NCBI GenBank assembly: GCA_022484595.1
Contig: JAKVLB010000001.1
Span: 372,001 to 436,000, forward strand
Reading direction: 5' to 3'
DNA length: 64,000 bases
From: Mageeibacillus sp.
GTDB taxonomy: Bacteria > Bacillota > Clostridia > Saccharofermentanales > Saccharofermentanaceae
Shown here: positions 7,667 to 46,500 of the stretch, in pieces
How the letters are laid out: every line of letters begins with the position of its first letter
How positions within the stretch are numbered: the first letter of the stretch is position 1
Made by a program: the position numbers and the translations under genes
The notes under the pieces: model-generated
What the model saw: only the letters and a program-made list of their open reading frames with translations
Database searches by the model: none
Told to the model about the DNA's origin: nothing

Positions 7667-10031
<2,365 letters not shown>

Positions 10032-10046
10032 TTTCTTCTTCCTTCA

Positions 10047-12537: not shown

Positions 12538-12555
12538 AGGTCCAAATTCCCTTCA

Positions 12556-12852: not shown

Positions 12853-12874
12853 AATTAATTCCTCCTAAACTTTC

Positions 12875-13753: not shown

Positions 13754-13782
13754 ATAAATCCTCCTTATTATTGATTCACACC

Positions 13783-13810
13783 ATTTTACGCCTATTATTT
13801 GAAATGTCAT
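13783..13810 (-). promoter_or_regulatory. Probable promoter of the atp operon
   Basis: On the minus strand ATGACA (13810-13805) and TAAAAT (13788-13783) are 16 bases apart. Transcription would start about 23 bases before the atpB ATG. Each box has one mismatch from consensus. Confidence 0.5.
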
Positions 13811-13891
13811 AACACTTTTTAGACAAAAATAAACCCCAGAAAGTCAAGATAACTGTCCGAGGCTCCATTGCCTTTGTATTAGGATATTATA

Positions 13892-14344
13892 TTACTTAAA
13901 GTTCTCTTGTTCAAGTACCCCTATGTCCCCAACTCTTACCGCATGGCGACCGCCCGTGAAATCCTCGTCAAGAAACGCGTCAACCATGGCGAGCGCAAGA
14001 GCCTGACCTACCACTCTTGCTCCAAATGAGAGAACATTGGCATCGTTATGCTGTCTGCACATTCTCGCCATATACTCGTTGTTGCAGAGCGCACATCTGA
14101 TACCCTTATGTTTGTTGCAGACCATTGATATCCCGATACCGGTCCCGCATATAGCGATTCCCTTGTTTGCTTCTCCGTCAAGAATATCCTTACAGACCTT
14201 CTTGCCGGCTTCCACATATGAGTACGGCTCGGAGGACGACAAAGCTCCACCGTCAATAACCTCATAGTCAAGATCCTTAAGATGGCCGATAACTATCTGC
14301 CTCAGCTCGTAGCCGGCATGGTCCGATGCAATTGATATCTTCAT
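13892..14344 (-). CDS. rpiB: Ribose-5-phosphate isomerase B
   Basis: Interconverts ribose 5-phosphate and ribulose 5-phosphate in the pentose phosphate pathway. The 150-residue protein opens with KISIASDHAGYELRQ, has the catalytic-cysteine segment GIAICGTGIGISM, and NNEYMARMCRQHNDANVL with the phosphate-binding residues. Related sugar isomerases (LacA/LacB, AlsB) share this fold, so the exact substrate is not certain. CGGAGGAGA precedes the ATG. It lies 12 bases downstream of proA and is probably cotranscribed with it. Confidence 0.9.
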   Translation of the reverse strand: MKISIASDHAGYELRQIVIGHLKDLDYEVIDGGALSSSEPYSYVEAGKKVCKDILDGEANKGIAICGTGIGISMVCNKHKGIRCALCNNEYMARMCRQHNDANVLSFGARVVGQALALAMVDAFLDEDFTGGRHAVRVGDIGVLEQENFK

Positions 14345-14356
14345 ATTCTCCTCCGT

Positions 14357-24603: not shown

Positions 24604-24888
24604 TCATTTTGCGGTGCTTATAGGCGCGGTAACCTCTATATGATTCCCCTCGCTATCTTCAAACTCACTAACCCAATTCTCTCCAATGGTTTTTAGTGGA
24701 AACACAATTTTAAGTTCAGCGAGTTTTTTGCGTAAAATTTCAACATTGTCGACTTCTATACTTGGTAGGCAGTTGCTCCCATAACTATGTTCTTCCTGCA
24801 TTTTTTCAAACGCAAATAGCCCCAAGCGAAATCCGCCAATATCAAACACACTATAGATGTCATCTTTTACTGTTACTGATTTTTCAAA
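24604..24888 (-). pseudogene. VOC-family (glyoxalase fold) gene, 3' part, cut off by the inserted element
   Basis: 94 codons of a vicinal-oxygen-chelate protein: FEKSVTVKDDIYSVFDIGGF, RLGLFAFEKMQEE, PSIEVDNVEILRKKL, WVSEFEDSEGNHIEV. The beginning of the fold is missing, and a TAA lies in frame just upstream at 24891-24889. The missing 25 residues are found 12.3 kb away at 37239-37165, in the same orientation and frame, and both parts end in the 9-bp sequence TTTGAAAAA. Joined there they give a normal 119-residue single-domain protein. VOC proteins include glyoxalases, dioxygenases and antibiotic-binding proteins; this one cannot be assigned further. Confidence 0.88.
24880..24888. repeat. Left attachment core (attL-like)
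   Basis: TTTTTCAAA, identical to 37156-37164. The VOC 3' fragment is on its left and the element on its right. Just inside are two copies of TTGTATTGATTT at 24905-24916 and 24935-24946. Confidence 0.8.
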
Positions 24889-25002
24889 TTATCAATAGTA
24901 TTTCTTGTATTGATTTCTTTCAAGGTATATCAAGTTGTATTGATTTGATAGAAACATAGATAAGTCAAGGGCTTTCGCTGGTTTGGCTTTTGTCGAGTGG
25001 TG

Positions 25003-25035
25003 TATATAGGTGTATCGAGTTGTAACACCTATATA
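25003..25035. repeat. 11-bp perfect inverted repeat near the left end
   Basis: TATATAGGTGT (25003-25013) and ACACCTATATA (25025-25035) with an 11-base loop. The right arm and following bases (ACACCTATATAACCCAT) recur near the other end at 37107-37123 with two mismatches, in the same orientation. It may be a recombinase or terminus-recognition site. Confidence 0.5.
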
Positions 25036-25118
25036 ACCCATTTTATTTAGGTTGGTTGATTTACTGTTGATTTATTATAATGAGGAAAGCCGCACGGGTT
25101 GCCATCGTTCCCCGGTTC

Positions 25119-25207
25119 GGTGTGGGTGTGCTGACAGAATGACAGCACCAACACCACCCCCGGAGGGGGATATACAAAAGCCACCCACCCGGGGGAGGGA
25201 GTGGCTT
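25119..25207. repeat. Cluster of GC-rich stem-loops
   Basis: An imperfect hairpin lies at 25119-25158 (GTGCTG facing CAGCAC), then a CCCCC/GGGGG stem at about 25156-25169, then AAGCCAC (25178-25184) pairing GTGGCTT (25201-25207). This GC-rich block stands out from the AT-rich surroundings. It could be a terminator, a replication or transfer origin, or a structured RNA. The rest of 24889-25790 has no gene I can support. Confidence 0.4.
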
Positions 25208-25263
25208 AAATATCCCGAAAAAATAAAAAGGACTTTTTAAGAGTGTCTTATATAAATATATGT

Positions 25264-25407
25264 AGTAACTTTAGTAACCAAAAATCATTATAATCTATAA
25301 TATACAATCTACTATCCTTTTACAGATACAAAATAATCCGATTAAGACAATCATACTGTTACAAGGGTGAAGTAACTATGGAGTAACCGTAGTGATTTTC
25401 CAGTAAC
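25264..25407. repeat. Left array of five AGTAAC repeats
   Basis: AGTAAC occurs at 25264, 25273, 25371, 25382 and 25402 (intervals 9, 98, 11, 20). The right array at 36838-36980 has the reverse complement GTTACT at matching intervals, so the two arrays are mirror images. They also share the 12-mer GTTACTTCACCC on opposite strands. The pattern suggests arm-type recombinase sites, transposase-binding ends or replication iterons. Confidence 0.72.
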
Positions 25408-25790
25408 GGACTAGGCGAAAACCCCCAAAAAGTTCTTATTGCTCTTCTTATATTTTATTTATTTTTTTTTTCATCTCGAAAAGTGCTAAATCTTATACCG
25501 ATTGTATGATATGACTATCCGAATAATATGATTTTCACAATTAAAGATAAATTCTTATCCTCAAAAGACACTTTACAAAGTCACTTACGCTGACTATAAT
25601 AAGCATATAAACTAAATATCAAAAGCATTTTAGCTTGGTGGTGACAGGTTGAACTAAGTGAAAGCGATAATGACAGGTCGCAATTCGTTCTCGTGTATAG
25701 TGTAAAATCCCTATGGGAATCTATACATAAGTTTTATCTGATTTACAGCCACACAAGTTTACTAATGACTATGTTGTTACGGAGCATATA

Positions 25791-25845
25791 GCACATTAGC
25801 TGATTGACCCTTTATAGGGTGTTTTCAGTTAATGTGCTTTTTTAT
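25791..25845 (+). terminator. Two-stage hairpin and T-run upstream of the first element gene (attenuator-like)
   Basis: GCACATTAGCTGA (25791-25803) pairs with TCAGTTAATGTGC (25825-25837), 13 pairs including one G-T, with ACCCT/AGGGT nested inside, and six T follow. It ends 22 bases before the ATG at 25868, so it may stop transcription entering the element's operon or act as an attenuator. Confidence 0.75.
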
Positions 25846-25867
25846 TGTCAAAAAGGAGGTCGATGTA

Positions 25868-26035
25868 ATGACAGAACAGGAAGCGTTGGAAAAAGCAAAA
25901 GAACAAATAAGAGCTAAAAATGCCGCTTATAAAAGAGAATGGAGAAAACGTAATCCGGGCAAAGAAAAAGCCGCACGAGAAAAAAGGTTGGCGAGAGAAA
26001 TTATGAGACAGGAGGTTTTGAATCATGGTGAATAA
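25868..26035 (+). CDS. Small highly charged protein of the element
   Basis: 55 residues, mostly Lys, Arg, Glu and Ala: TEQEALEKAKEQIRAKNAAY, KREWRKRNPGKEKAAREKR. The YKREWRKRNPGK-type motif recurs in the broken gene at 28957. AAAAGGAGG lies eight bases before ATG 25868. Probably a nucleic-acid binding phage accessory protein; I do not recognise the family. It overlaps the start of the next gene by 11 bases. Confidence 0.6.
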   Translation: MTEQEALEKAKEQIRAKNAAYKREWRKRNPGKEKAAREKRLAREIMRQEVLNHGE

Positions 26036-26237
26036 CACAATAGCTTATGAAGGAGCTGTTTATCGTTCTATAAAAGAAGCTGTAAAGATAACAGGCTTGT
26101 CAGAGTATTACTTCAAGCAAAACCTCAAGGCTGGAAAAATCCCTCATATCAGAAATGGCAATAAAATCTTCATTAATATACCTCGATTACTTGCAGAGTT
26201 GGAAAAAGTGACTGATACCAGCCTTGTAAACCTGTAA
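26025..26237 (+). CDS. Excisionase-like helix-turn-helix protein
   Basis: A 70-residue protein with a MerR/Xis-like winged helix: YRSIKEAVKITGLSEYYFKQ is the HTH and GKIPHIRNGNKIFINIPRLL is the typical wing that reads a flanking DNA site. Proteins of this type direct excision or regulate small elements. GGAGG precedes the ATG. It is the only candidate recombination-directionality factor here, although no partner integrase is visible. Confidence 0.65.
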   Translation: MVNNTIAYEGAVYRSIKEAVKITGLSEYYFKQNLKAGKIPHIRNGNKIFINIPRLLAELEKVTDTSLVNL

Positions 26238-26249
26238 GGAGGTGACATG

Positions 26250-28073
26250 ATGGAAGAAAAGGAACAAAGCGTTACTGTATGTGATGATTATGTCTACTAT
26301 ACTCCTAGCGGAAAATCAGCTCGAAGGGAATCGTTGAAGACCAAAGATGGTGAACCCTACGAGGAAACAACGATATTTGCTAATCATTTTGCCAAAGTGC
26401 TATGTGTGAAAATTATTGATGATGGTGTGGTAAAAAACCAAATTATACAAATATCAGTCTTCCGCAATGGTAAATGGAGCGAGGTTGTGGATTTATCACA
26501 AAAAGACGCATTGGGTAATAATCCAAACGCTTTTTTTGAACCCGGTTGTAGAGTTTATCCATGGGTGCGAGCTTCAAAAGCATTGCAGATTGATATGATT
26601 CAAGCACAATGTGAAGTGGCAGAGCGAGCTTATGTTAATCAACATACAGGGTACAAGACTATTAACGGAAACCGGGTGTTTCTGAATGCAATCAATAGTA
26701 TCACCGAAGACGGAAAATCTCCACTCCATCAAGCTGTGTTACCGGGGCAAATGTCAAACTACGGATTTCTTCCCGATGAAGATAAAAGCTCGGAGCGATA
26801 CAGAACTTTGCTATTCATGTTTTGTGATGATTTTCCAGCTCCCAATGAGCTTATGTTCGCTGGTGTGGCATTTGCTTTTTTGACATCATTGAATGGACTG
26901 TTGCGAGAAATTCTACTTGAACCAAGGTTTGTTTTATATTTCATTGGTTCAACAGGTTGCGGAAAAACATCTATGGCGAATTGGTTTCTGAATTTCTTCG
27001 GGATATTTTCGTACAATTCACCAGCACCTACTAATTTTAGCAGTACAAAAAATGCAAATGAAAGAATTTATGGTATTGCGGATTCTGTGCTGGTGTCATT
27101 GGACGATAAACACCCAACAGGAACAACTCAAGCAAAAGCAAATCAATCAGATGTAGAACAAGGGGCATTAAGAGGTTCGGGTGATAAGGCGGCAAGGGCG
27201 AGGTTAAATGCGGATTCCACTATGAAAGCGTCATATCAGATGAAATGTAATCTTATTATCACAGCAGAGGAAGCATATACAGAAGTTGGCGAAAGTGCTA
27301 TTGCTCGTTCGATTTCAGTTGATTTGAAGCCCGGTGACATTAGGCTCGATGGTGAAAACAGCATGGTCGATATGTGGCACAATGCAAAACACTTGAATCA
27401 GTGCATGGGTGAGTTTATCCAGTATGTTCTATGTAATTGGGATAATTTGCAAGCGAGAGCAAGGCAGTTATTTGACACAATCAATCCAAAAGCTCGTACT
27501 GGTGGTCATAACAGACTGGCAGAAACTATTACATTTTTGCAAATGGGTATCACTTTTATGTGTGATTGGTTGATAAGTGCAGAAGTTATCAACAATGACA
27601 AGGCAGAGCTGATACAGAAACAGTCGTGGTTAATTTTCAAGAAAATGTCTGAAAATCAGAATCAGAAAATCACGTCAGAAAAGCCGGAGCAGATGTTTTT
27701 AACTGCCATTAAGGAAATGCTCGCTCAAAACACTATTAGGGTAATTAAGTTAGGACAGGAATCTGATTACACAAACCCTTCTAAGGTGGGATTCTATGAC
27801 GGTAATTATTACTACTTCTACCCACAGGCGATTTTTATAAAAGTCAAAGAATTTTATGCTTTACAAGGGAGGTCATTCCCATTAGGACAGGCGGCATTAT
27901 TCAGTCACTTAGCCAATGAAGAAATGATTGAAGTTGACCGGGTAAAGAACGGAAAAATTCAGTCTACCAAAGGTAAACGAATTAAGGGTGTGGCTGATGG
28001 CAAGACTGTTCGCTACTTATGGTTACGAGCAATCGCATTACAAGAAAATGAGGAGGAAAAAGAAAATGAATGA
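26250..28073 (+). CDS. DUF927-type phage/plasmid helicase (replication protein)
   Basis: About 607 residues. The central region contains a Walker A motif, YFIGSTGCGKTSMANWFLN, a Walker B-like ADSVLVSLDDKHP, and ALRGSGDKAARARLN, an arginine-rich segment expected at the subunit interface. DUF927 proteins are superfamily ATPases used as replicative helicases by phages, satellites and integrated elements, often next to primase functions. Two ATG codons (26247 and 26250) follow AAGGAGGTGA; the second has better spacing. It overlaps the next gene by 8 bases. This is the likely replication module of the element. Confidence 0.75.
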   Translation: MEEKEQSVTVCDDYVYYTPSGKSARRESLKTKDGEPYEETTIFANHFAKVLCVKIIDDGVVKNQIIQISVFRNGKWSEVVDLSQKDALGNNPNAFFEPGCRVYPWVRASKALQIDMIQAQCEVAERAYVNQHTGYKTINGNRVFLNAINSITEDGKSPLHQAVLPGQMSNYGFLPDEDKSSERYRTLLFMFCDDFPAPNELMFAGVAFAFLTSLNGLLREILLEPRFVLYFIGSTGCGKTSMANWFLNFFGIFSYNSPAPTNFSSTKNANERIYGIADSVLVSLDDKHPTGTTQAKANQSDVEQGALRGSGDKAARARLNADSTMKASYQMKCNLIITAEEAYTEVGESAIARSISVDLKPGDIRLDGENSMVDMWHNAKHLNQCMGEFIQYVLCNWDNLQARARQLFDTINPKARTGGHNRLAETITFLQMGITFMCDWLISAEVINNDKAELIQKQSWLIFKKMSENQNQKITSEKPEQMFLTAIKEMLAQNTIRVIKLGQESDYTNPSKVGFYDGNYYYFYPQAIFIKVKEFYALQGRSFPLGQAALFSHLANEEMIEVDRVKNGKIQSTKGKRIKGVADGKTVRYLWLRAIALQENEEEKENE

Positions 28074-28641
28074 TTTAGTTACAGTGAAATCAATGGCAGA
28101 GGTCTTATCTGCCGACAAGAAAAGGAGTAACTATAAAGGCAAGCTGTATAAGGAAATGTCAGATGAACACAAATGCGACCAAATCACACAGGACACCCAA
28201 AATAAATTGTCTGCTTTAAAACAAACCCTTGATGTTCCGAGGGTAGATTTATCAAACACAAAACAGGTTCAAGACAGAGCTTTCATGTACCTTGAAGCCT
28301 GTTCCTTATCAGCAAGTTTTCCATCTGTGATGGGCTTATCCGGGGCTATGGGGTGTTCCCGACAAAATCTCAATCGCTGGTTGTTATCACACCCTGACCA
28401 CCCGACTACCAATTTTGTAAACATGGTGAAAGACACAATGGCAGACATTCTCACAAATGCGTCATTATTCAACACAGCCAATCCGGTGCAAACTATTTTT
28501 CAGCTTAAAAATCATTTTGAACATGTTGACCGTATAGAGCTTGCCCCGGTTGCACCGAATCAATCGGATAACGATTACAATGCAGACGAAATTCGCAAAC
28601 GCTATATGCTGGAAAATAAAGACAAAGAAGGAAGGGAGTAA
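28066..28641 (+). CDS. Small-terminase-like protein
   Basis: 191 residues. The middle carries an HTH, ACSLSASFPSVMGLSGAMG then CSRQNLNRWLLSHPDHP, and the C-terminal part has NPVQTIFQLKNHFEHVDRIE, resembling the tail of phage small terminase subunits, which choose DNA for packaging. The start at 28066 has GAGGAGG upstream and overlaps the helicase stop. No large terminase follows, so as a TerS it would have to redirect a helper phage's packaging machine. A role as a simple DNA-binding regulator is also possible. Confidence 0.5.
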   Translation: MNDLVTVKSMAEVLSADKKRSNYKGKLYKEMSDEHKCDQITQDTQNKLSALKQTLDVPRVDLSNTKQVQDRAFMYLEACSLSASFPSVMGLSGAMGCSRQNLNRWLLSHPDHPTTNFVNMVKDTMADILTNASLFNTANPVQTIFQLKNHFEHVDRIELAPVAPNQSDNDYNADEIRKRYMLENKDKEGRE

Positions 28642-28643
28642 TC

Positions 28644-28979
28644 ATGGGTCAAATTAAATTTATGCAGTTTTACACACGACTGGTTGAACATTTTCTTCGT
28701 ATGACAGTACGCAATTCATCTGTGACAGGTGAAGTACCGCAGTATTGGCACAGTTTTACTACACATTGGATTGAAAATTTATCTGATGAAGATAAAAAAT
28801 TTATTTGTTTTGTATTTGATAAGCAATATGATGATAGCCGAGATGGAATCGGCTGTTATCCAAGTGAAGACGCGTACCCGGTCAAGCGAGAACGGTTATA
28901 CAGGCTCGAGAGAGATTTTGCTATTGCTGGCGGTTTAATTGTGGAGGGTTCAACGAATGACGGAAGCACAGAGAGCTAA
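28644..28979 (+). CDS. Phage-related protein of unknown function
   Basis: 111 residues: MGQIKFMQFYTRLVEHFLR, WHSFTTHWIENLSDEDKKFI, FDKQYDDSRDGIGCYP, RERLYRLERDFAIAGGLIVE. No motif that I recognise. It starts 2 bases after the preceding stop, and its 3' end overlaps the start of the broken gene at 28957, so it belongs to the same transcript. Confidence 0.6.
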   Translation: MGQIKFMQFYTRLVEHFLRMTVRNSSVTGEVPQYWHSFTTHWIENLSDEDKKFICFVFDKQYDDSRDGIGCYPSEDAYPVKRERLYRLERDFAIAGGLIVEGSTNDGSTES

Positions 28980-29154
28980 AAAGAATGAGTAGCAAAGGTA
29001 ACATTACCGCCGCCACAGGGAGCAACGTGCTGAATACCAGCGGAAATATAATGAGGAACACCCGGAACAGGTACGAACTCCACGAAAAGCCTATGCTGAC
29101 CGAAACCGGGAGAAACTTCAACGGTATTAGCATGAGTATATGAAAAATATCTAA
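28957..29154 (+). pseudogene. Small basic protein gene with three in-frame nonsense codons
   Basis: ATG 28957 has GGAGGG seven bases upstream. A 66-codon frame then reads MTEAQRAKKNE, stop TAG (codon 12), QR, stop TAA (codon 15), HYRRHREQRAEYQRKYNEEH, PEQVRTPRKAYADRNREKL, QRY, stop TAG (codon 58), HEYMKNI, TAA. Replacing all three with Gln (CAG or CAA) gives a coherent charged protein like the one at 25868. Each stop is one C-to-T change from a Gln codon. The composition stays coding-like throughout. Confidence 0.55.
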
Positions 29155-29178
29155 AAAACAATAAGGAGGACTAAAATT

Positions 29179-29505
29179 ATGACATCTAAAATCAAATTCA
29201 CCTATGGGGGTAAGCAGTATATTCTCGAATTTACTCGAAATTCTGTCAAGGAACTGGAAAAACGAGGGTTTGTTGCGTCCGAGGTGCTGGAAAAGCCATT
29301 GACAGTATTACCCGATATGTTCGCTGGGGCTTTTATTGCAAATCACCGCTTCACTAAGAGAAAGGTTATTGATGAAATCTTTGCAAAGATTGATAACAAG
29401 GAAGAACTGGTAAACACGCTCGCAGAGATGTATAGCCTTGTTATTGACGAGTTTGTGGACGAACTCGAAAAACGAAACAAGGATTTGTCATGGGAACGCA
29501 TTTAA
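29179..29505 (+). CDS. Phage tail assembly chaperone (DUF5055-like)
   Basis: 108 residues: SKIKFTYGGKQYILEFTRNS, VKELEKRGFVASEVLEKPL, FAGAFIANHRFTKRK, ELVNTLAEMYSLVIDEFVDE. The size, fold pattern and position just ahead of the tape measure gene are those of the tail assembly chaperones of siphophages and Clostridia prophages. ATAAGGAGG precedes the ATG. Many phages extend this protein by a programmed frameshift; the hairpin and T-run that follow here argue against a long extension. Confidence 0.72.
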   Translation: MTSKIKFTYGGKQYILEFTRNSVKELEKRGFVASEVLEKPLTVLPDMFAGAFIANHRFTKRKVIDEIFAKIDNKEELVNTLAEMYSLVIDEFVDELEKRNKDLSWERI

Positions 29506-29527
29506 CTATATGCGATACCATTAAAGG

Positions 29528-29578
29528 GTGCATGATTGCACAAGATTAAGTTCTCGAGTAGTCATGCACTTTTTTATT
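29528..29578 (+). terminator. Hairpin and T-run between tail chaperone and tape measure genes
   Basis: GTGCATGA (29528-29535) pairs TCATGCAC (29562-29569), followed by seven T. It would reduce transcription into the tape measure gene, perhaps keeping the chaperone in excess. Confidence 0.72.
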
Positions 29579-29604
29579 TTGCAGAAAAGGAGGAAAAATA
29601 AATT

Positions 29605-32600
29605 ATGGCTGATACAACAATAGAAAGTCTACAGCTTGAGATACAAGCCCCTTCCAACGAAGCCGCAAACAGTATTAATAAGCTCACATACACTTTAGGC
29701 AAGCTCAAAAGTGCCACAAAGGGATTAGGTCTGACAGGTGTATCGAATCAGATTAAGGGTCTCAACACCGCCTTACAAGGTGTGGACGCTTCTTCTGCTG
29801 ATAAGCTGGACAAGATTTCAAACAGTCTGTCGAAACTGTCCGGGTTGGGAAATCTCAAGATTTCTTCCTCCATCGGAAATCAGTTAAAGAGTATAGGAAG
29901 TGCCGCAACCGCCCTCAATGGAGTGGATTTTTCCGGCATTGGTAAACTCTCCACAGCACTACAGCTGCTTGCTTCGTTAGGTAAGAGCAATCTTACTTCG
30001 TTCATTACGCAGTTGGGTAAATTGCCGCAGTTGGCACAGACCCTTCAAAATATGAACATGGCACAATTTACCGCACAAATTCAGCAGTTGGCTAATGCTC
30101 TCGCTCCGCTGGCAAATCAGTTGAATACGGTGTCTACCGCTTTCTCAAGACTTCCGGCAAATATGCGTAGTACGGTGAGTGCCACAAATTCTCTCACTAC
30201 TGCCAATAACACAGCGGCTATGAGTTATGCAAACCTTTGGGCGAAGTGCAGAATGGCTATGAATGTAGTCAAGACTGGTGCAAGAACGATTGCTTCGTGG
30301 ATAACCGAATCCAATAGTTATGTTGAAAACTTAAATTTATTCAATACAGCTATGGGAGAATATGCCGCAGAAGCACAGAAGTGCGCAGAGCAAGTCGGAG
30401 AAGTAATAGGTATTGACCCGGGCGAGTGGATGAGAAATCAAGGTGTCTTTATGACGATTACGAAGGGCTTTGGTGTAGCAAGTGACAGAGCTTACACTAT
30501 GTCGCAGAATCTTACACAGCTCGGTTACGATTTGTCTTCTCTGTTCAATATATCCTATGCTGATTCCATGCAAAAATTGCAGTCGGGTATCTCCGGCGAG
30601 CTTGAGCCGCTTCGTAGATTGGGTTATGACTTATCACAGGCAAGATTGCAACAGGAAGCATACAACCTCGGTATTGATAAATCTATCACCAAAATGACAC
30701 AGGCTGAAAAGTCCGAACTTCGTTACTATGCCATTATGACACAGGTTACAGCCGCACAAGGTGATATGGCTCGTACTCTTAATGCTCCGGCTAACCAGCT
30801 TCGTGTGTTACAGGCACAGGTTACACAGTGTGCAAGAGCTTTGGGTAATATCTTCATTCCGGCTCTTAATGCTGTACTTCCTTACGCTATTGCTGTTGCT
30901 AAAATCATCAAAGAATTAGCACAGGCAGTGGCAAGTTTCTTCGGATTTGAATTGCCGGAGGTGGATTATTCTTCACTTTCCTCTGGCTCAAGTGCATTGG
31001 GTGATATGGCTGATTCCGCTGGTGATACTGCTGGTGGATTGGGTGACGCAACAAAGGCGGCAAAGAAGCTGAAAAATGCTTTACTCGGCATTGACGAGTT
31101 AAATGTAATTTCTCCTAACGATGATTCATCGAGCGGAAGTGGCTCGAGCGGAAGTGGCTCGGGCATAGCAACAGGGAGCGATTTAGGATTTGAACTCCCG
31201 GAGTATGATTTCTTAGACAATGCTATCAATCAGAAGGTTGAGGATTTAGTTAAGAAATTCAAAGAATGGGCTGGTCTCACTGATGATATTGACACTTGGG
31301 CTGAATTTTTCCATACGAAATTAGGTCGAATCCTTATTCTCGTTGGGGAAATTGCGGCTGGATTCCTTGCATGGAAATTCGCAAAGTCTTTCCTAAATGG
31401 TCTCGCATGGTTGCAAAATCTCAAGAAATTGGGATTGACTACACCACTCACGCTTGCCGCCGGAATAGTTCTCACTGCTACAAGTCTAGTAATTGAATGG
31501 ACTGGTATCAAAAGCATAATTCAAGATGGGATAGATTCTCTTAATTTCGGGCAAGTCTTAGGGGGGAGCTTTAGCTGGTACAGGTTCGTTCGCATTACTC
31601 GGCACAGGTATAGCCAACTTTATAACAAAGGCATTTGCTGGTACTGCTGTTGCGGAAGCTATAACCGCCGCTGGTGGTGGAGTTGCTGGTGCTTTCATAG
31701 GTGCGGCTATCGGTGGAATAGTCACAGGATTACCGATGTTTGTCGTAGGTATTTGGTCTGCTCTAAAAGAAGGTTTGAATAAGTTAAATGGCATATTGAT
31801 AACTGCTGGTGCAACGCTTGTCGGTGCTGGCACAGGTGCTATGATAGGTGCGGCTGTCGGTTCTATAGGAGGACCATTAGGCACGGCTATTGGTGCTTTG
31901 GTTGGATTGGTCGTAGGTCTACTCACCGATTTAGGAATCTATATATATCAAAATTGGGATTCAGTTTCAGCGTGGTTTAATGGAGTATGGGGAAGCATTT
32001 CAAATTTCTTTACCTCTACTATACCCGGCTGGTGGAACAGCACTGTTGTTCCATTCTTTACAGGCATACCAGATTGGTTCAAAAGTATTTTTGAATCAGT
32101 TCACACATGGTTTGTTGAAAAATGGACTGCTATCACCACATTTATGAGCGGTATTCCGGCAAAAATCGGTGAAGTTATCGAATCCATTAAGCAATGGTTT
32201 TTGTCCTTACCCGGGAAGATAGGCTATGCTCTCGGATTTGCTTTTGGAAAAATAGTTAAATGGGTAATCGATAGTTACAATTACCTCATGGTTAAAATCC
32301 CCGAAACAGTGGAAGCAGTTAAAAAATGGTTTTCGGAACTTCCGGGTAAAATCTATATTGCCATTTCGGGAGCAATATCGAAGGTAGTCAAATGGGGAAG
32401 CGAAATGCTTTCTAAGTTCAAAGAAAAAGTGTCTGCCATAGTTACAAATGTAACGAAATGGTTCAAAGAACTGCCCAGCAAGATTTACACCGCCATTTCC
32501 GAGACTGTCAAAAAGATTACCGCATGGTGTTCCGATATGATTACAAAAATCAAACAGGAACTACCGAAAGTCATTGATAAGATTGTTGAGTTCTTCAAAG

Positions 32601-34069
32601 GGATTCCCGATAAGTTAAAACAGCTCGGTGTTGACATTTGGAACGGATTCATAGCTGGACTAAAGGGAGCTTGGGAAACACTAACGAAAGCAATATCTGA
32701 TTTTGTAGGTGGCTTTGTACAAGGATTTAAAGACGCTCTCGGTATTCATTCTCCTTCCACGGTATTCAAAGAACAAGGTGGATATATCGTAGAAGGGCTG
32801 ATTGCTGGTATCAACGGTAAAATGTCCGATAGTATTGCGAAGGTCAAGGAATGGGCTGGTAGCGTTGTTGAATGGTTCACTGCTGGTAAAGACAGTAAGG
32901 GTATTGTCGAGAATTTCAAAGAAACCGCTGGAAATATCGTAAGCGGCTTCAAGGATAAAATAGGTGGCACTTATAGCACAGTGAAAAGTAATATTTCAAC
33001 ATGGGCTAATAATGTTAAAGACTGGTTTACAAGTTCTTCCTTCGGTGGAGTGAACAGTACCTCTTTCAGTACCTTCGCAAACAATACCATTGAGGGCTTT
33101 AAGTCCAAGATTGGTAGTGCCTACACGAACACCAAGACGAACATTACGACATGGGCGAGCAACGTAAAGAAGTGGTTCTCTGACAACGGTTATGGTGGTA
33201 TCAACAACACGAACTGGCAGACTTTCGCCAACAACGTAGTCGAAGGTTTCAAATCCAAAATCGGAAGTGCTTATACGAATACGAAGTCTAACATCACAAC
33301 GTGGGCTTCCAATGTAAAAAGCTGGTTCAGCGGTATTGCTTCAAACAGTGCTTTCTCCGGGTTTGCAAGTAATGTGATTGATGGTTTTAAGAGTAAAATC
33401 GGGAGTGCTTACATAAATGCAAAAAGCAATATGACTACCTTTGCAAATAGTGTAAAAGACTGGTTTGAAAAACCCGATGGGAATAACACCCTTGTGTCAA
33501 AATTTGTTGATATAGGTAAAAACATTATTCAAGGTTTCATAGACGGTGTAAACAGTTTGTGGGATACCGCTATGAGAAAGATTAAAGATTTTGGTAAAAG
33601 CATTATTTCAAAAGGCGAGGAAGGAACAGAGGAACATTCTCCATCTAAGGCTTTTAAGCGGATAGGTTCTTTTGTTATCGAAGGTTTCAACATCGGTCTC
33701 AAAGATACGATGGGTTCGAGTTTTTCTCTTATGGACACATGGACGAATGGTATCACAGCGTATTCTCCTACAGTTGGTTTGGCAGTAGATACCTCGGCAA
33801 TAGAATCCTTCAATCCTACGAAATTTGCGGATAGCATTTCAGCGAGTGTATCAACCAACAACAAAATGGTGGTTGAGGACGATATTGAAATCGCCATGGA
33901 CAACGCATTGGAGAGATATTATCAGCGGCATTTGTCAAAAATGGCAGAGGATATTCGCAGACAGGCAGACAAAAAAGAACAGACCATAGTACAGGTAGGC
34001 AACCGAACCGTAACAGACGCTGTTGTAAGACAGCAATCTGCGAATGGCTACAAGTTCATTACAACCTAA
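29605..34069 (+). pseudogene. Phage tail tape measure protein, frameshifted at a G6 run
   Basis: The first frame runs from ATG 29605 (GGAGG upstream) to 31782. It is Ala/Ser-rich coiled coil (SADKLDKISNSLSKLSGLGN) plus a membrane-active segment. After NFGQVLGG at 31561-31566 it turns to nonsense. The next frame continues sensibly (LAGTGSFALLGTGIANFIT, GAFIGAAIGGIVTGLPMFVV) to 34069, so the full protein would be about 1,488 residues. Deleting one G from GGGGGG restores the frame. The tape measure sets tail length and helps DNA entry. Whether this is a mutation, a phase-variable tract, a sequencing error or a +1 recoding site cannot be told here. Confidence 0.82.
32948..33537 (+). repeat. Four tandem repeats of about 50 residues in the tape measure gene
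   Basis: Units begin FKDKIGGTY, FKSKIGSAYTNTKTN, FKSKIGSAYTNTKSN and FKSKIGSAYINAKSN, each followed by TW/TFA-N-VKxWF and closing in a glycine before the next unit. Repeat number in tape measure proteins is known to scale tail length. Confidence 0.8.
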
Positions 34070-34086
34070 TAAGGAGGTATCACATA

Positions 34087-34179
34087 ATGTTCTCTATGAA
34101 TTATCCCAAAAGAAAGTCGGGTTTCGGGAGGGGCAACTCTCCCCCAGCCCTACAAGTAACAACGAAACTGAAACTATAA
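34087..34179 (+). CDS. Possible 30-residue peptide
   Basis: ATG 34087 follows AAGGAGGTATCACATA, a strong ribosome binding site. The frame reads MFSMNYPKRKSGFGRGNS, PPALQVTTKLKL, stop. It may be a genuine short gene or the leftover 5' end of a larger one. No homology that I recognise. Confidence 0.35.
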   Translation: MFSMNYPKRKSGFGRGNSPPALQVTTKLKL

Positions 34180-34210
34180 TGAAACATGAAAAATTAGGAG
34201 GTATCTTACC

Positions 34211-35173
34211 ATGAGTACAGATATGAAAAAATACAAATCATTCGAGCAGTTAGCAAGTGATATTAAGAACTTAAACGAGCAGTGGAAAAATGTCAAAATT
34301 GACGCAAATAAGGAACTCACTTTTGCCGGGATTCAGAAGAAAATTCAGAACATTCACACTTTCATCGCCAACGAAAGAAAGACGTTAAACTCTGACATTG
34401 ATAATCTCAAAGAGCTTTGGAGTGCAAAGGTTGTAGAGGAACACAAACAGGAGCTTACACAGCAGTTTGAAGAAATGGTACAGACCTTGATTCAGTCTGA
34501 AAGAAAAGAAATCGCAACTCTCATTAGTTCTAAAATGAACAAAATCGAAGAAATGATTTCCACAGCACCAACCGAAGACCAGCTTCGACTTTTACAGGCA
34601 TTACAGATGAGAGGTGACCTTGACTTGGTGGAAGTAACACACATTCTTCCAATGTTCTTTGGCAATTATCAAGCAATGAAAGTGTTACAGTCAGTGAGCG
34701 AAAGAAACGGATTTCAGCTTCACACACCTGTACAGCTTGATTGTCGAGAAATGTACGAGACTTTGAACGAAGCAAACGACTTCCTCATGGGAGCTTGCAA
34801 CGAAGTGTCTAAAAAAATCAATAATATGACTATTGAATATCATGCTTTTTATACTGTAAACAGTAAAGAATCTGACAAGCAGTATGACCCTAAGTATCAG
34901 CAGTATATTGATTTGTTCGATACAACACCACAGTTACAGGATTGTAAAACAGAGAAAACCGCCTTATCGCCAACAGAAAAGGCTAGAGTGGATTGGTATT
35001 TCAGAGAAGTAGCCGCTCTTGACCCAACAACACCGGGAGACGATACAACTATCTTGAATAAAGTAAGTGAGGTTATTAAAAACAATCCAGATATTGCAGA
35101 GCTGTTACCTTACACTGAATACGAGGATTATGTTTCAGCACTCGAACTAATCAAGGCAGAACAGGAAGAATAA
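34211..35173 (+). CDS. Coiled-coil phage-related protein of unknown function
   Basis: 320 residues. The N-terminal 130 are strongly helical and charged (SFEQLASDIKNLNEQWKNVK, IHTFIANERKTLNSDIDNLK, ERKEIATLISSKMNKIEEMI). A mixed domain follows (VEVTHILPMFFGNYQAMKVL, CREMYETLNEANDFLMGACN). AGGAGG lies before the ATG. Its place after the tape measure would suit a tail or scaffold-like structural protein, but there is no firm match. Last gene of the rightward operon, followed by a terminator. Confidence 0.6.
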   Translation: MSTDMKKYKSFEQLASDIKNLNEQWKNVKIDANKELTFAGIQKKIQNIHTFIANERKTLNSDIDNLKELWSAKVVEEHKQELTQQFEEMVQTLIQSERKEIATLISSKMNKIEEMISTAPTEDQLRLLQALQMRGDLDLVEVTHILPMFFGNYQAMKVLQSVSERNGFQLHTPVQLDCREMYETLNEANDFLMGACNEVSKKINNMTIEYHAFYTVNSKESDKQYDPKYQQYIDLFDTTPQLQDCKTEKTALSPTEKARVDWYFREVAALDPTTPGDDTTILNKVSEVIKNNPDIAELLPYTEYEDYVSALELIKAEQEE

Positions 35174-35182
35174 ATGTATAAG

Positions 35183-35217
35183 AAAAGCCCTACTCCTTAA
35201 TGGGGTGGGGCTTTTTG
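35183..35217 (+). terminator. Terminator of the element's rightward operon
   Basis: AGCCC-TACTCC pairs with GGGGT-GGGGCT around a short loop, followed by TTTTT, ten bases after the stop at 35173. Confidence 0.85.
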
Positions 35218-35345
35218 TAACCTATTTTATAGCTTTGAGTAAGTAATATAACACAACGAAGGGAAAGAAAATTATGCACATAATTACCCACCCTATACCA
35301 TAATAACCCTTCTTCACACGAAAACCTCCTATGATATGGTGTGGC

Positions 35346-36044
35346 TTATTTCCTACCATTTAAAGCAACGACTACGCTATCGAAACCAGTTTCGGAATAA
35401 CATTCGCTCTCCCCGGTAATTGACTGTCCAGCGGCAAGCTGGTTATCGCTGTCCATGAGTGAGATTTCGCTGAAACCGACCATTTTACCGTCTTTCAGAT
35501 ATACAACATCAAACCAAACGAAATTTGCGGTATCTGTACCGCTATTTGTGGCTGTTGCTACGACTTTCGTATCAGTGGTGTTATATTCGATAGCAACATC
35601 GTTGTAAATCGAGTTATCGCCTGTTTCTTCGACTGTGAGTGCATAATCAAACTTCTCGATAGTGTCATACTCGTCAAAGGTTGTCCATATACAGGAGGTT
35701 TGACCGGGAGCAATAGCTCCTACACCTTCCTCATATGCTCCCACATTGGTGTTCGCTTCGTCTTTGGCAACGATGTTGGCTTCGACATTTACGACTTTAT
35801 CAGAATCATTGGTTATGAACATTACATAGTAGCGGAATGAATCATCAATCACACAGGTATAATCATCGACTTTCATTTGTTCTGCCAATGCCGGTGCTTC
35901 TGTCTCGGAGCTTGTGTCAGCTTCGGCTACAACTTCGGGCTTGGGTACATTGGAACTTCCGCTTGTGGTGCTGGTGAAGCTTCCGCAAGCTGTTAGAGCA
36001 AGGGAAAGAACTACTCCAACGAAAAGAACTTCAAACTTCCTCAT
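35346..36044 (-). CDS. Lipoprotein of unknown function
   Basis: 232 residues from ATG 36044, with AGGAGGTG six bases upstream. The signal peptide FEVLFVGVVLSLALTACGS ends in the lipobox LTAC, so Cys would be lipidated and the protein anchored outside the membrane. After a Ser/Thr/Glu-rich linker come two beta-rich domains (YTCVIDDSFRYYVMFITNDS and VVATATNSGTDTANFVWFDV), like the FxLYD family that binds at the cell surface. It overlaps the stop of a truncated regulator by ATGA. Being transcribed against the phage genes, it may be a lysogenic-conversion cargo gene. Confidence 0.75.
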   Translation of the reverse strand: MRKFEVLFVGVVLSLALTACGSFTSTTSGSSNVPKPEVVAEADTSSETEAPALAEQMKVDDYTCVIDDSFRYYVMFITNDSDKVVNVEANIVAKDEANTNVGAYEEGVGAIAPGQTSCIWTTFDEYDTIEKFDYALTVEETGDNSIYNDVAIEYNTTDTKVVATATNSGTDTANFVWFDVVYLKDGKMVGFSEISLMDSDNQLAAGQSITGESECYSETGFDSVVVALNGRK

Positions 36045-36150
36045 ACTTTCACCTCCTGTTGTGATTTCTTCTCCCATACGACTTTATAGCCGATTATGTC
36101 AGCAATTTCTTTAACCTCACTGTATTTTATTGTACCACGAGTGAGTTTGT
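36041..36150 (-). pseudogene. C-terminal fragment of a Cro/C1-type regulator
   Basis: On the minus strand FSNKLTRGTIKYSEVKEIAD then IIGYKVVWEKKSQQ, stop, resembles the end of small HTH repressors (NKLxRGxIxxxExxEIAxxxGY). The HTH start is missing. The frame breaks next to 36155, where the opposite strand begins a fragment of another gene. The fragment's stop overlaps the lipoprotein ATG, so the two were one operon. Confidence 0.6.
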
Positions 36151-36160
36151 TTGAAAAGCC

Positions 36161-36277
36161 ATGTTAAAGACGGTCACAAGCTCCCGAATTGATAGCAAGG
36201 CACTAAAACAGGAGCACCCCGACATAGTAGCCGCATACACCACAGAAACCAGCTACAAGCGTTTCACAGTCGCATAG
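36161..36277 (+). pseudogene. C-terminal fragment resembling YqaJ-type recombination proteins
   Basis: 38 codons: MLKTVTSSRIDSKALKQEHP, DIVAAYTTETSYKRFTVA, stop. The SSRxDSKALKxEHP...SxRFTV pattern is the closing segment seen in phage YqaJ/exonuclease-type proteins. There is no ribosome binding site at its ATG, so only the tail of a gene remains. It abuts the regulator fragment, which marks an internal deletion. Confidence 0.5.
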
Positions 36278-36292
36278 AAGGAGGTTGAAACA

Positions 36293-36460
36293 ATGAAAGA
36301 AAATAATAAGGATTTGAAAATTATAGCTTTGCAATTAAAAAGCTTGTTGGGTACTATGGCAAACACTGACCCGGACGAAACACAATCTATAGATTTGAAA
36401 TATACCGCACAATTAGCGGAATCACTCGCAGACACTTTATATTGTGCCATCGTAGAATGA
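36293..36460 (+). CDS. Small helical protein of unknown function
   Basis: 55 residues: KENNKDLKIIALQLKSLLG, TQSIDLKYTAQLAESLADTL. GAAGGAGG lies nine bases before ATG 36293, so translation is likely. It starts 15 bases after the YqaJ-like fragment and probably belonged to the same phage operon. Confidence 0.6.
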   Translation: MKENNKDLKIIALQLKSLLGTMANTDPDETQSIDLKYTAQLAESLADTLYCAIVE

Positions 36461-36473
36461 GAGGTGCAAAAGT

Positions 36474-36545
36474 ATGTTTATAGCGTTATGTATTATCATT
36501 TTACCGCTGGTTATTCTGTCGGAGCTGTTGAAACAGAATAAATAA
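36474..36545 (+). CDS. 23-residue single-span membrane peptide
   Basis: The frame reads MFIALCIIILPLVILSELL, KQNK, stop. It has GAGAGGTG upstream and follows the previous stop by 13 bases, with its own terminator behind it. A hydrophobic peptide of this size could be a holin-like, regulatory or type I toxin-like peptide. No family can be assigned. Confidence 0.45.
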   Translation: MFIALCIIILPLVILSELLKQNK

Positions 36546-36562
36546 TAAATATGAATAATAAG

Positions 36563-36592
36563 CCGCTCGGAGTGTTCCGGGCGGTTTGCTTG
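36563..36592 (+). terminator. Terminator after the small membrane peptide gene
   Basis: CCGCTCGG (36563-36570) pairs CCGGGCGG (36577-36584) with a six-base loop, followed by TTTGCTT. Between here and the right repeat array is one possible minus-strand hydrophobic frame (36641-36769) that I cannot support further. Confidence 0.65.
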
Positions 36593-36837
36593 CGTTCATG
36601 CCCCTGTTTACACCTTAAAAAGAGTTTTTTAACAAGAAAATCACCTATAAACCGGGGGCAACTCGGTGCTCTCGTAAAATCCCCATGAAAAACAGCCCGA
36701 AACAAGCCCCAACACCAGCAACAGCCCATAAGCAAACCACAAAGCCCCAATAGAGCCGCCAACAGCCATAGCATGAATAACACTCACCAACGCATAAAAA
36801 CCTCACACCGGGCGAAATATAGAGTTTGAAAGTGTTT

Positions 36838-36980
36838 GTTACTTCCTTTTTATCTGCTGTTACTTCGATGTTACTTCACCCAAAAACAGATACTTTGTTA
36901 TATTTCAATCGTTATAGTGTCATATAGTCACCCTTTTAATGCAAAAAATTATCTTATTTTTTCGTGTTACTGCGGTTACT
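36838..36980. repeat. Right array of five GTTACT repeats
   Basis: GTTACT at 36838, 36859, 36870, 36966 and 36975 (intervals 21, 11, 96, 9). This mirrors the left array (20, 11, 98, 9 when read backwards). The third copy is within GTTACTTCACCC, also present on the other strand of the left array at 25376-25365. Between this array and the attachment core are TGTTGCTTT-type repeats near 37030-37065 and the direct repeat partner at 37107-37126, but no gene. Confidence 0.72.
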
Positions 36981-37155
36981 TTATTTTTAGACATAGTACA
37001 CATACTTTTTACAAAATACATTCTTGCGGTTGCTGTTGCTTTCTTTCCCTCTGTTGCTTTTCTGTTGATTTTCTCGCTATTCCAGCACCTACCCACACCA
37101 CACAAAACACCTATAAAGCCCATATTCACAGGCTTTTATATAAATCACTGTTTAT

Positions 37156-37164
37156 TTTTTCAAA
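37156..37164. repeat. Right attachment core (attR-like)
   Basis: TTTTTCAAA, identical to 24880-24888. Element on the left, VOC 5' fragment on the right. Confidence 0.8.
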
Positions 37165-37239
37165 AAAGTTTTCATAAAAAGCAATTGCTCTTTCCATGCT
37201 TTTCACGCATAAATATAATGATTTGATATTACAATCCAT
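37156..37239 (-). pseudogene. VOC-family gene, 5' part (N-terminal 28 codons)
   Basis: ATG 37239 has AGGGGG about nine bases upstream and is followed by DCNIKSLYLCVKSMERAIAF then YENFFEK, the first beta-alpha unit of a VOC protein. The last three codons lie in the attachment core, after which the frame enters the element and stops about ten codons later. The rest of the gene is at 24888-24604. The intact promoter side suggests that a useless 37-residue peptide is made. Confidence 0.88.
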
Positions 37240-37337: not shown

Positions 37338-37422
37338 TGGTGCGGGCATGGGGACTCGAACCCCAACACATTGCTGCATAAGAACCTAAATCTTACATGT
37401 CTACCAATTCCATCATGCCCGC
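37338..37422 (-). tRNA. tRNA-Leu (anticodon UAG)
   Basis: Minus-strand class II tRNA with acceptor GCGGGCA/TGCCCGC and encoded CCA. The anticodon stem TAAGA/TCTTA has loop TTTAGGT, anticodon TAG. It has a long variable arm and a T-arm GGGGTTCGAGTCCCC. It reads CUA-type leucine codons. A strong stem-loop (CGTCTG/CAGACG with TGAGCA/TGCTCA) occupies its 5' leader at 37426-37461. Confidence 0.95.
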
Positions 37423-43580: not shown

Positions 43581-46500
43581 TTATCCGGCAATTGCGCACT
43601 GCGAATAGTTTGCCGATATGCCGTAGTACACGTCCGAAGGCGCGCCCGAGCCCTTAGGCACAAGAACTACCTGTATTGCCTCGAGTCTCTTTGACAGTCC
43701 GGACGTTCCGCTCATCTGTCCGTTGCACGCCCAGCCGAGCCAGCCGTAATCCTGACAGTGTACACGATAGTATACATCATAATGCTGCGCAATCTCTCCA
43801 GTCAGCTCTATCTCTATGCCTTCAAGTCTCTTGCTCTCGCCATAGGTCCCGCTCATCTCTTCGTTTGACACATAGTTCTGCCAGCCATAATCCTGAACAT
43901 GTGTACGATACTCTATTCCGCCCGAATACTGTGTTCCGGTGAGATGTATCTCTATGCCTTCAAGTCTCTTGCCTTCTCCGACTGTTCCGGATTCTGCTCC
44001 GTTTGCTGCCCAGTCTGTCTCCCAGCCGTAGTCCTGACGGTGAACACGGTATTCTACTCCGATTGACTCCGTCACGTCAAATGGCACGAGCATTACATTG
44101 ATTTCCTCTACTCGTCTGCTCTCTCCTGTAGTTCCGGCCAGTGCTCCGTCTCTCACCCAGCCCTGGTTATCTCCATAGTCCTGAATGTGAGCGCAGTACT
44201 GCACACTGTAATGCTGTGCAAGCTCTCCAGTAAGGCGGATCTCTATTCCTTCAAGTCTTAAGCCCTGTCCTGTTGTTCCTGCCACCTGACCGGCATCGAC
44301 CCAGTCCATCCATCCTATGTTCTGAACATGTACGCGATACTGCATACTGCCTGAATATCCTGTGTTGTTCACAAAATTGATGCAGATCCGCTCCATGCGT
44401 TTGCTCTCGCCTCTGGAACCGAGTTTGAGCACTCCCGTTGTGCTGTTAAAAGTACCTTCTCTGTCTCCGTAATCCTGTACATGCGCTGTTCCTGTAAGCG
44501 TATATGTTCCGGTATAGTCACCGGGCAGTCCGTTCGTTCTTGTTCCCGGATACACTCTCGTCGAAGGCGTCGGCGCTGCCGTAGGAACCGCTGTAGGTGC
44601 CGCTGTTACTGAAGGTGTTACCTTAGTTGTTGGTGTTGATATTACCCCTGATGTCGGCGTCGCTGTAGGACGCGGTGTCGGCGTCGCTGTCGGACGCGGT
44701 GTCGGCGTTGCCGTCGGACGCGGTGTCGGCGTTGCCGTCGGACGCGGTGTCGGCGTTGCCGTCGGACGCGGTGTCGGCGTTGCCGTCGGACGCGGTGTCG
44801 GCGTTGCCGTCGGACGCGGTGTCGGCGTTGCCGTCGGACGCGGTGTCGGCGTCGCCGTCGGAATCGGTGTCGGAGTCGCCGTAGGACGCGGTGTCGGCGT
44901 CGCCGTCGGAATCGGTGTCGGAGTTGCCGTCGGACGCGGTGTCGGCGTTGCCGTCGGACGCGGTGTAGGCGTCGCCGTCGGAATCGGTGTCGGCGTTGCC
45001 GTCGGACGCGGTGTAGGCGTTGCCGTCGGACGCGGTGTAGGCGTCGCCGTCGGAATCGGTGTCGGAGTTGCCGTCGGACGCGGTGTCGGCGTTGCCGTCG
45101 GAATCGGTGTCGGAGTCGCCGTAGGACGCGGTGTCGGCGTCGCCGTCGCTGTAGGCGAACCTGAATTTACTATGTTCACATAGTATGCAGCCGGCTGATT
45201 GTCAGCACAATTCGGATCATTGCTGCAGACCTTGTAATAAACACAATATCTACCAGTATTGGTCGCCGTAGGTATATCGGTAGTATAACTTGAGTAATCC
45301 TGTGAAAGAGAATACTTTACATATACGTCGTCTCTTGAGACCGTAACGGATCCGAGCTGCTGCGGCTGGCCTGTATATGCCAGATCGGAGTTGTTGACTG
45401 ACTGCACTATGTTCTTTGGCAGAGATATACGATTGATGTAAAAGCTTATCTCTTTTGTTCCGCCATATTCTGATTCTTCTGTAGGTGTAATTATCGCCGT
45501 TGCAGTACCTGCATTGATATTGTTCTTACAGGTTACGGTGTACTCCGTTGAAGGAATCAAAACATTATGAAAAGAGACACGCAGCGAAGGCGTCTTAGGT
45601 GTTCCGTCATAAGTATACGATCCATCTACCATTACAGTTGCGACAGAGATGCTCGGTTTTCTGACAGTTATCTATTTTGAGTAATGTCCCAGTTCACCAT
45701 TATATGTGATCGTATACGTTCCGGCCTTCTTTGGCGTCATATTACCAAGATAATCAATTGGCAGCGCTGACGTGTCAGATGAAGACCAGCAGTTTGTATT
45801 CTCGATAACAGGATGATTGTATCTGCTACCGTAAGGTTTTGCGTCAACCTCATTTACCAACATTAAGCTTGCATGTGGGTATGTTCTGCCGACAATCATT
45901 TCGGAATATGAATACAGTTCAAATCCTGTTACTGTGCTGGTATTAACCTCAACTGTCTGTCCGATGAAGCCCGATACATCCAGTTTTGTAGTATCAAGCG
46001 CCTTTGTCGTTTGAGAAAACTCCGCAATACAATGGTCACCGCTTACGCTGTTGAATGATGCAAGACCGCAGTATGTATTGTTTGGATCTATTAAACTCAC
46101 ATATTCATTTATCGCTTCATTGTTTTTGTTGATCAGCCAGTTTCTCTGCTGTGTATCATACCAGTCGGAAACAGACTTCATTATAGTCTTTGTGTCCATA
46201 ATCTCTGCGTCTGATGGTACGCCGTAGCTAGCACCGGAATTATCACTGTCTCCGTTGGGTCTGAATGTACCATAACTGCCGAATGTTTCGGCAGAACGCA
46301 GGAGAGCCATATTCTCAAGAGCAGATGACCACTTAATCGGGACATAATCAGACGGTTTCAGCGTCCTGCCGGTAGCGGTAATATGAACTCCTCTGTCGCA
46401 GGCATCCTTGCGGATCTTGTTGATCTCCGTCAATATCTCATCTTTTGTCGCCGTGTCAAATGTACCCTGGTAATTATACAATTTGCATCCTTCACCGGGT

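Follow-up and report, generated by a model that had tools for sequence, protein, structure and literature searches.

The window analysed here, a stretch of 64,000 nucleotides of contig JAKVLB010000001.1 from Mageeibacillus sp. (assembly GCA_022484595.1), carries a gene of the vicinal oxygen chelate (VOC) family that is interrupted at codon 28 by an element of 12,276 bp, measured core to core. To judge from its genes and those of its relatives, the element is probably a degenerate copy of a phage satellite that has become stranded in the VOC gene, and its family would supply its own small terminase, tail chaperone and tape measure. Four related loci, L030, L067, L074 and L075, serve for comparison. 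The features of the locus, including small open reading frames (ORFs), are listed below.

24604..24888, minus strand: remainder of the VOC gene
24880..24888, plus strand: left attachment core TTTTTCAAA, then TTATCAA, as at the ends of L030 and L067 (TAATCAA in L074)
25264..25407, plus strand: five AGTAAC repeats, iteron-like, at 25264, 25273, 25371, 25382 and 25402
25790..25838, plus strand: strong terminator-like hairpin upstream of the first satellite gene, its shape kept in 5/5 satellites
25832..26035, plus strand: small basic protein, phrog_14214-like
26025..26237, plus strand: HTH_17 or excisionase-like regulator (weak Pfam match, below cut-off)
26247..28073, plus strand: primase/helicase (phrog_8841, E 3.5e-06)
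28066..28641, plus strand: small-terminase-like protein, TerS (PF16677 GP3_package, E 1.9e-05, below the curated cut-off)
28644..28979, plus strand: 28644 protein, conserved among satellites, no assigned function
29179..29505, plus strand: DUF5055 protein, presumed tail assembly chaperone, of a satellite-specific clade
29605..31782, plus strand: tape measure, N-terminal part, departing from the frame of its relatives at or near a G run at about 31560
31736..34069, plus strand: tape measure, C-terminal part, in the shifted frame
34211..35173, plus strand: 34211 protein, conserved among satellites, no assigned function (identity 37% to L030, 34% to L074, 57% to L075)
35346..36077, minus strand: lipoprotein-like gene without a Pfam match (at this position L075 has a lipoprotein-like gene with DUF5067)
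36062..36163, minus strand: C-terminal remnant of the satellite repressor (79-87% identity to L030/L075)
36134..36277, plus strand: C-terminal remnant of a RecE-C-terminus-like gene, marking a deletion joint (whole in L075, 87 aa, and L074, 88 aa)
36293..36460, plus strand: small ORF, with a homologue (32%, E 5e-07) just after the L075 integrase
36474..36545, plus strand: short hydrophobic peptide gene, with a homologue just before the L075 integrase (78%)
36838..36980, plus strand: five GTTACT repeats (the inverted hexamer), at 36838, 36859, 36870, 36966 and 36975
37156..37164, plus strand: right attachment core TTTTTCAAA, preceded by CACAGGCTTTT...GTTTATT, as in L075 (and partly in L067)
37156..37239, minus strand: VOC gene start, first 28 codons (glyoxalase/bleomycin-resistance fold)

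The preliminary description of this DNA placed the two parts of the VOC gene at 37239-37156 and 24888-24604 of the minus strand, and both junctions read as it claimed. When the flanks are joined at the repeat, a single minus-strand frame of 119 codons results, its ATG directly after an in-frame stop, and the rejoined protein scores 24.6 bits for PF00903 Glyoxalase, above the Pfam cut-off of 20.6. The VOC protein was matched in 9 of 85 genomes of the genus, its own included. A whole gene was sought in these relatives, a check suggested in the same description, and five other genomes have one: six uninterrupted copies (G001, G003, two in G055, G058 and G082), 53-60% identical, align collinearly and without gaps across the junction. 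The VOC gene was once continuous. Partial or broken copies occur in G024, G069 and G071; the homologues L010 and L014 (G024) and L011 and L016 (G069) have a first half that looks broken or strongly diverged, and loss of the VOC gene may be common. An orthologous empty site was not found, as none of the nine VOC loci of the relatives, with about 1.5 kb on each side, has lepA or the gene for the 543-aa protein as a neighbour. A search with the DNA of the right flank gave matches in 62 of 85 genomes, in almost all to the tRNA alone; the exception, G019, has a weak match covering 43 bases of the VOC start. Since few genomes match and the VOC loci of the relatives lack lepA and the 543-aa gene, the VOC gene is accessory within the genus.

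The ends of the element were said in the preliminary description to be defined to the base. They are fixed to within the 9-bp core, and the joint in L030 agrees independently. The chance identity of two random 9-mers drawn near both ends is about 3.5 per 100,000; TTTTTCAAA occurs a third time in the window, at 24802, deeper in the VOC gene. The circular joint predicted for the element matches bases 1-56 of L030 at 47 of 56 positions (E 1e-14), and the left end of L074 is near-identical to that of the window. Because the joined sequence is present in L030 and the left end is kept in L074, the core behaves like an attachment site. In L067 the sequence before the right core is ACAGGCTTTT, and this right core lies in the last codons of rpsI, which remains whole; the core in the window, unlike that of L067, sits within a gene and breaks it. 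A transposon with a 9-bp target duplication was considered and rejected, there being no transposase among the genes scanned and a joined core in L030. The tRNA-Leu at 37338-37422 was likewise rejected as the attachment site, as it is positioned outside the element.

Ten ORFs of the element were scanned against Pfam and PHROGs. No large terminase (TerL), portal, capsid or lysis gene was detected among them, and four had no useful match. The same library was tried as a control on nine genes of the phage L029, whose tape measure is related; it detected genes for TerL, portal, scaffold, major head, connector and tail tube, with one weak match only for lysis. Large terminase, portal and capsid genes were also not detected among the scanned genes of L030 or the further genes scanned in L074, L075 and L067, and a search of the element's own genome for an HK97 capsid found none. 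The earlier label of a phage-like element is not supported in the sense of a prophage, as the scans of the element gave no large terminase, portal or capsid gene, whereas the library does detect these in L029. The TerS protein is 65% identical to that of L030, 51% to that of L067 and 33-34% to those of L074 and L075. A peptide similar by eye to the hydrophobic one at 36474..36545 is found just after the integrase of L067; there is no integrase in the window. Searches of phage records returned nothing for the 34211 protein and two distant unannotated records each for the helicase and TerS. Three Rfam matches all fall far under the gathering scores, and the one PADLOC match, to the 34211 protein, is weak (0.0049) and is not trusted.

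Relatives with the same gene set were found in metagenomic data. When IMG/VR was scanned with the tape measure, 41 loci were matched. Two of them, L030 and L031, have the other genes of the window in an order that differs only in the position of the 34211 gene, before DUF5055. L030 has in addition a tyrosine integrase (PF00589, E 6.5e-29) and a small repressor. L031 is 99.95% identical to L030 to base 10872 and then continues as a phage tail module (L031 10872-13632), the switch falling within the tape-measure gene; it may be a natural recombinant or an assembly chimera, and was not counted as an independent member. The first viral scans, with single helicase and single 34211 proteins, confirmed no relatives, while an alignment of helicases led to L074 and L075, which have the same gene set with an intact tape measure, a repressor and an integrase, and which share with the window the position of the 34211 gene after the tape measure. 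The set common to L030, L074 and L075 comprises the HTH, primase/helicase, TerS-like, 28644, DUF5055, tape-measure and 34211 proteins, at 33-75% identity to the window (42-45% for the primase/helicase and 69-75% for DUF5055). Their tape measures are intact, at 1365, 1394 and 1471 aa for L030, L074 and L075, respectively. The TerS-like proteins of L074 and L075 are closer to the first copy in L030 (65% and 56%) than to that of the window.

An alignment of TerS led to L067, in an Oscillospiraceae metagenome-assembled genome (JAISGQ010000043.1), with an integrase, a repressor, an HTH protein and TerS. This satellite (7666-15031) occupies 7.35 kb between 12-bp repeats in rpsI. Its integrase and repressor are 59% and 82% identical to those of L030, and its ends have the same architecture; unlike the window element, it has a different replication gene (AAA_25) and no match to the tape measure or DUF5055. 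Integrases are thus present in all four relatives, and repressors matching that of L030 over the full or nearly full length occur in L067, L074 and L075. No other close member was found among the kin of the host. The helicase is matched in 3 of 85 genomes of the genus, and the 115 genomes of the family add none to these three, two of which are distant (27-28%); the tape measure is matched in 5 of 85 genomes of the genus, four at 27-30%; and TerS, in 1 of 188 genomes of the order, is matched only in the window's own. The satellite family is probably Clostridia-associated. A 268-aa gene of L074 (10881-11684, minus strand), at about the same place as the lipoprotein-like genes of the window and L075, has a superinfection-exclusion-like PHROG match (phrog_8545, 1.7e-08).

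The spacing of the tail genes separates the satellites from the phages. From the stop of DUF5055 to the start of the tape measure there are 99 bp in the window, 102 in L030, 101 in L074 and 36 in L075. The distance between the matches themselves is 109 bp in L030 and L031, and 333-489 bp in all 38 phage loci with both genes, being at least 430 bp in 35 of them; in the three at 333 bp the tape-measure match begins late. L047, which has no DUF5055, and L066, where the match begins late, were left out of this count. Many of the contigs are near-copies of one another, so that there are 27 distinct tape-measure rows in all, the window and L030 included.

The two tail genes appear to have had different histories. 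In the DUF5055 tree a single branch (100/100) sets the four satellites apart from the 17 phage rows. In the tree of the tape-measure N-terminus, the window and L075 fall among phages L026, L027, L028, L033, L035, L036 and L051 (99/98), while L030 and L074 are next to L032 and L061 (99/98), and then L037 and L053. Constraining the four satellite tape measures to one clade is rejected (log-likelihood 266 lower, approximately unbiased test p 4e-50), and the tape-measure tree needs at least three changes. Because the chaperone tree gives one clade where the satellites are scattered in the tape-measure tree, the trees indicate that the satellites retain a chaperone lineage of their own but exchange the tape-measure gene with phages. 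The helpers are likely siphophages, since L029 encodes a portal of the SPP1 type as well as a tail tube. Related phages and satellites also occur in the same metagenomes by contig name, 3300029305 having L074 with phages L042, L059 and L065, and 3300024268 having L030 with L063, which is weak evidence of helpers.

The ends of the element carry repeats that resemble iterons. None of 2000 dinucleotide shuffles reaches the count of AGTAAC at the left end of the window or that of GTTACT at the right end, where GTTACT is the commonest 6-mer. The left ends of L030 and L074 have five copies of AGTACC at nearly the spacing of the window (9, 98, 11 and 20 in the window; 9, 107, 11 and 20 in L030; 9, 97, 11 and 9 in L074). 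The hexamer thus varies with the layout kept, as would be expected of binding sites changing with their protein. The right end of L075 has two copies of GGTACT; no counterpart of the right-hand repeats was seen in L030 or L074, the contigs of which possibly end short of there. In a circularised window element the two repeat sets would lie on either side of the attachment site and point towards each other. Their role may be that of an origin, which is favoured, or of integrase arm sites. TTGACGA-type repeats are seen near both ends of L067, in inverted orientation. The hairpin upstream of the first satellite gene, found also in L030 (1859-1918), L067 (8446-8505), L074 (1215-1274) and L075 (136-195), has a T run and the same shape with differing sequence (z -7.1 to -9.5 in the five satellites), and could be an attenuator of the replication operon.

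The copy in the window has decayed. There is no integrase in the element, and that of a relative has no match in the window. Searches of the genome found PF00589 in four places, none on the contig of the window, and no serine recombinase PF07508. Since the four tyrosine recombinases are 20-29% identical to the satellite integrases, and this over parts, help from an integrase in trans is unlikely. Only the C-terminus of the repressor remains, abutting the C-terminal part of the RecE-C-terminus-like gene. L074 has the repressor first, followed by the integrase, a 239-aa gene and the RecE-C-terminus-like gene; from such an order a single deletion with its joint at about 36134-36163 would remove the integrase, half of the repressor and half of the small gene. 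L075 has the RecE-C-terminus-like gene before the integrase, and from that order two deletion events would be needed. The tape measure shifts frame near 31560, where a sequencing error is possible. A programmed frameshift was rejected, as the shift is +1 (or -2) and the genes of L030, L074 and L075 are in one frame; the G run is also not in the phase of a classical -1 slippery site. The window copy is probably stranded and its VOC gene broken for good; the interruption is real and probably permanent.

It is possible to propose how such satellites might move. In intact relatives the integrase would recombine the short core at the ends, the sequences of which are shared, and the excised circle would replicate from the opposed iterons on either side of the attachment site. 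The small terminase may then steer the packaging motor of the helper onto satellite DNA, while the satellite chaperone and tape measure would enter the tail of the helper to give a chimeric tail, as suggested by gene content and by experiments with the satellites of Vibrio cholerae known as PLE (phage-inducible chromosomal island-like elements). The satellite in the window would have inserted at codon 28 of the VOC gene and then lost its integrase and half of its repressor and gained the frameshift in its tape measure. For the family as a whole, a reading judged somewhat more likely than not is that capsid-less Clostridia satellites build chimeric siphophage tails, keeping their chaperone and repeatedly capturing the tape measure of a helper as an exchangeable, helper-matching module.

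Several points weigh against this interpretation. Mobilisation of these satellites by a helper phage is a proposal. The role of DUF5055 as a tail chaperone is presumed from its place before the tape measure, and the small-terminase assignment is weak, with the PF16677 match below the cut-off both in the window and in L030 (E 1.7e-06); TerS in L074 and L075 is 33-34% like that of the window. Structure models are poor, with a pLDDT (predicted local distance difference test score) of 43 for the TerS-like protein and 57 for the 34211 protein. Four members bearing a tape measure are known, plus one possibly chimeric contig, and the Clostridia label for the family rests on L067. The contigs of L030, L074 and L075 may each lack one end, and the L030 joint is read from sequence rather than from circularity. 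The satellite group in the trees was named after an earlier tree on part of the rows had been seen, and the hexamer was picked after inspection of the ends, the commonest 6-mer at the left end being TGATTT, with seven copies.

Other explanations of the locus differ in how much of this evidence they can accommodate. Tape-measure and DUF5055 genes are ordinary genes of siphophages and the window copy does show decay, as would be seen if it were a temperate siphophage prophage stripped of most of its genes, the remaining set being accidental. Such an origin is improbable: the independent contigs L030, L074 and L075 have the same reduced set at 33-75% protein identity, with intact tape measures; TerL, portal and capsid matches are missing from the scanned genes of these relatives, though the library finds them in L029; and the satellite chaperones are a separate clade. 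Because the common gene set persists after such divergence, random loss is disfavoured. The preliminary description raised a reversible switch, in which the element excises in some cells and the VOC gene is restored. Excision would indeed restore that gene exactly, intact relatives have an integrase, and L030 has the joined site. The element is without an integrase, the genome encodes none resembling those of the satellites, and the repressor is truncated, so that the switch is not upheld for this copy and is very improbable; a repeat of 9 bp is also too short for efficient homologous recombination.

The satellite origin could be correct and the tail genes still serve mainly for interference, as decoys that poison the tail assembly of the helper and do not enter satellite particles. 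Tape measures like those of several phages could mis-size helper tails, and tail assembly is a known target of defence according to the excerpted texts of PMC10884400 and PMC11364771. This use of the genes is judged unlikely, though less so than the prophage origin. PLE satellites encode a tape measure and a chaperone, and the excerpted text of PMC12987554 (2026) gives the tape measure as required for efficient satellite transduction, its deletion lowering transduction. The repeated exchange with phages suggests a need for compatibility with helper tails, though it is compatible with a decoy too.

Two further observations lie outside the element. In G000 a phage portal gene appears to be split between L076 and L077 (C6 139658-140197 and 133539-133862), on opposite strands and about 6 kb apart, which might reflect an inversion or a break within a prophage. 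Within the window, an ORF of 683 aa at 43581-45632 has a long PTPRPTA/PTPIPTA repeat and then further repeats, presumably of the ChW type; its neighbour encodes what we take to be a CAP-like secreted protein.

The benefit of a satellite tape measure is a subject on which the 2026 PLE paper, in its excerpted text, calls for further work (PMC12987554). A second system of satellites with tape measures, apparently unrelated in host and in helper type, makes that question testable. In it the chaperone stays fixed while the tape measure is exchanged, and a swap of the latter should alter helper compatibility. As this locus also illustrates, what passes for a 'prophage inside a gene' can turn out to be a stranded satellite, and interruption of a gene need not imply a switch.

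No published report of this satellite family was found in the literature searched, most subscription papers and bioRxiv preprints being outside it; what came up was work on PLE, PICI, PICMI and other phage topics, along with reviews. The family resembles the phage-inducible chromosomal islands (PICIs) of Gram-positive bacteria in the integrase, repressor, HTH protein, putative replication gene, small-terminase-like gene and attachment core in a host gene of its members, part of which the window copy has. It differs from PICIs in encoding the tail morphogenesis genes for the tape measure and DUF5055, and the window copy differs further in having no integrase and no intact repressor. Capsid-forming PICIs (cf-PICIs) share the integrase and, in some members, a tape measure; the legend of Extended Data Fig. 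10 of PMC12987554 mentions PLE-like elements and cf-PICIs with putative tmp genes. Unlike the cf-PICIs, no capsid, portal or head genes were found in the scans of the window and L030. General features of satellites are given in the excerpted text of PMC10803314, and PMC4936722, as excerpted, is not close to this family.

A close parallel in gene content is with the PLE of V. cholerae, which like this family is a satellite with its own tape measure and tail chaperone; the two genes are adjacent here and the chaperone role is assigned from position. This likeness is one of gene content as described. In PLE the other tail parts are taken from the phage, and no other satellites had previously been reported with a tape measure, according to the excerpted text of PMC12987554. 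The present family differs from PLE in its host group, in its likely siphophage rather than contractile-tailed helpers, in its small-terminase-like gene, and in the different histories of its chaperone and tape measure, the latter apparently exchanged with phages. Relative to the PLE and cf-PICI reports, what is new is a family of satellites that has no capsid genes among those scanned, brings a tail chaperone of its own and appears to exchange its tape measure with phages.

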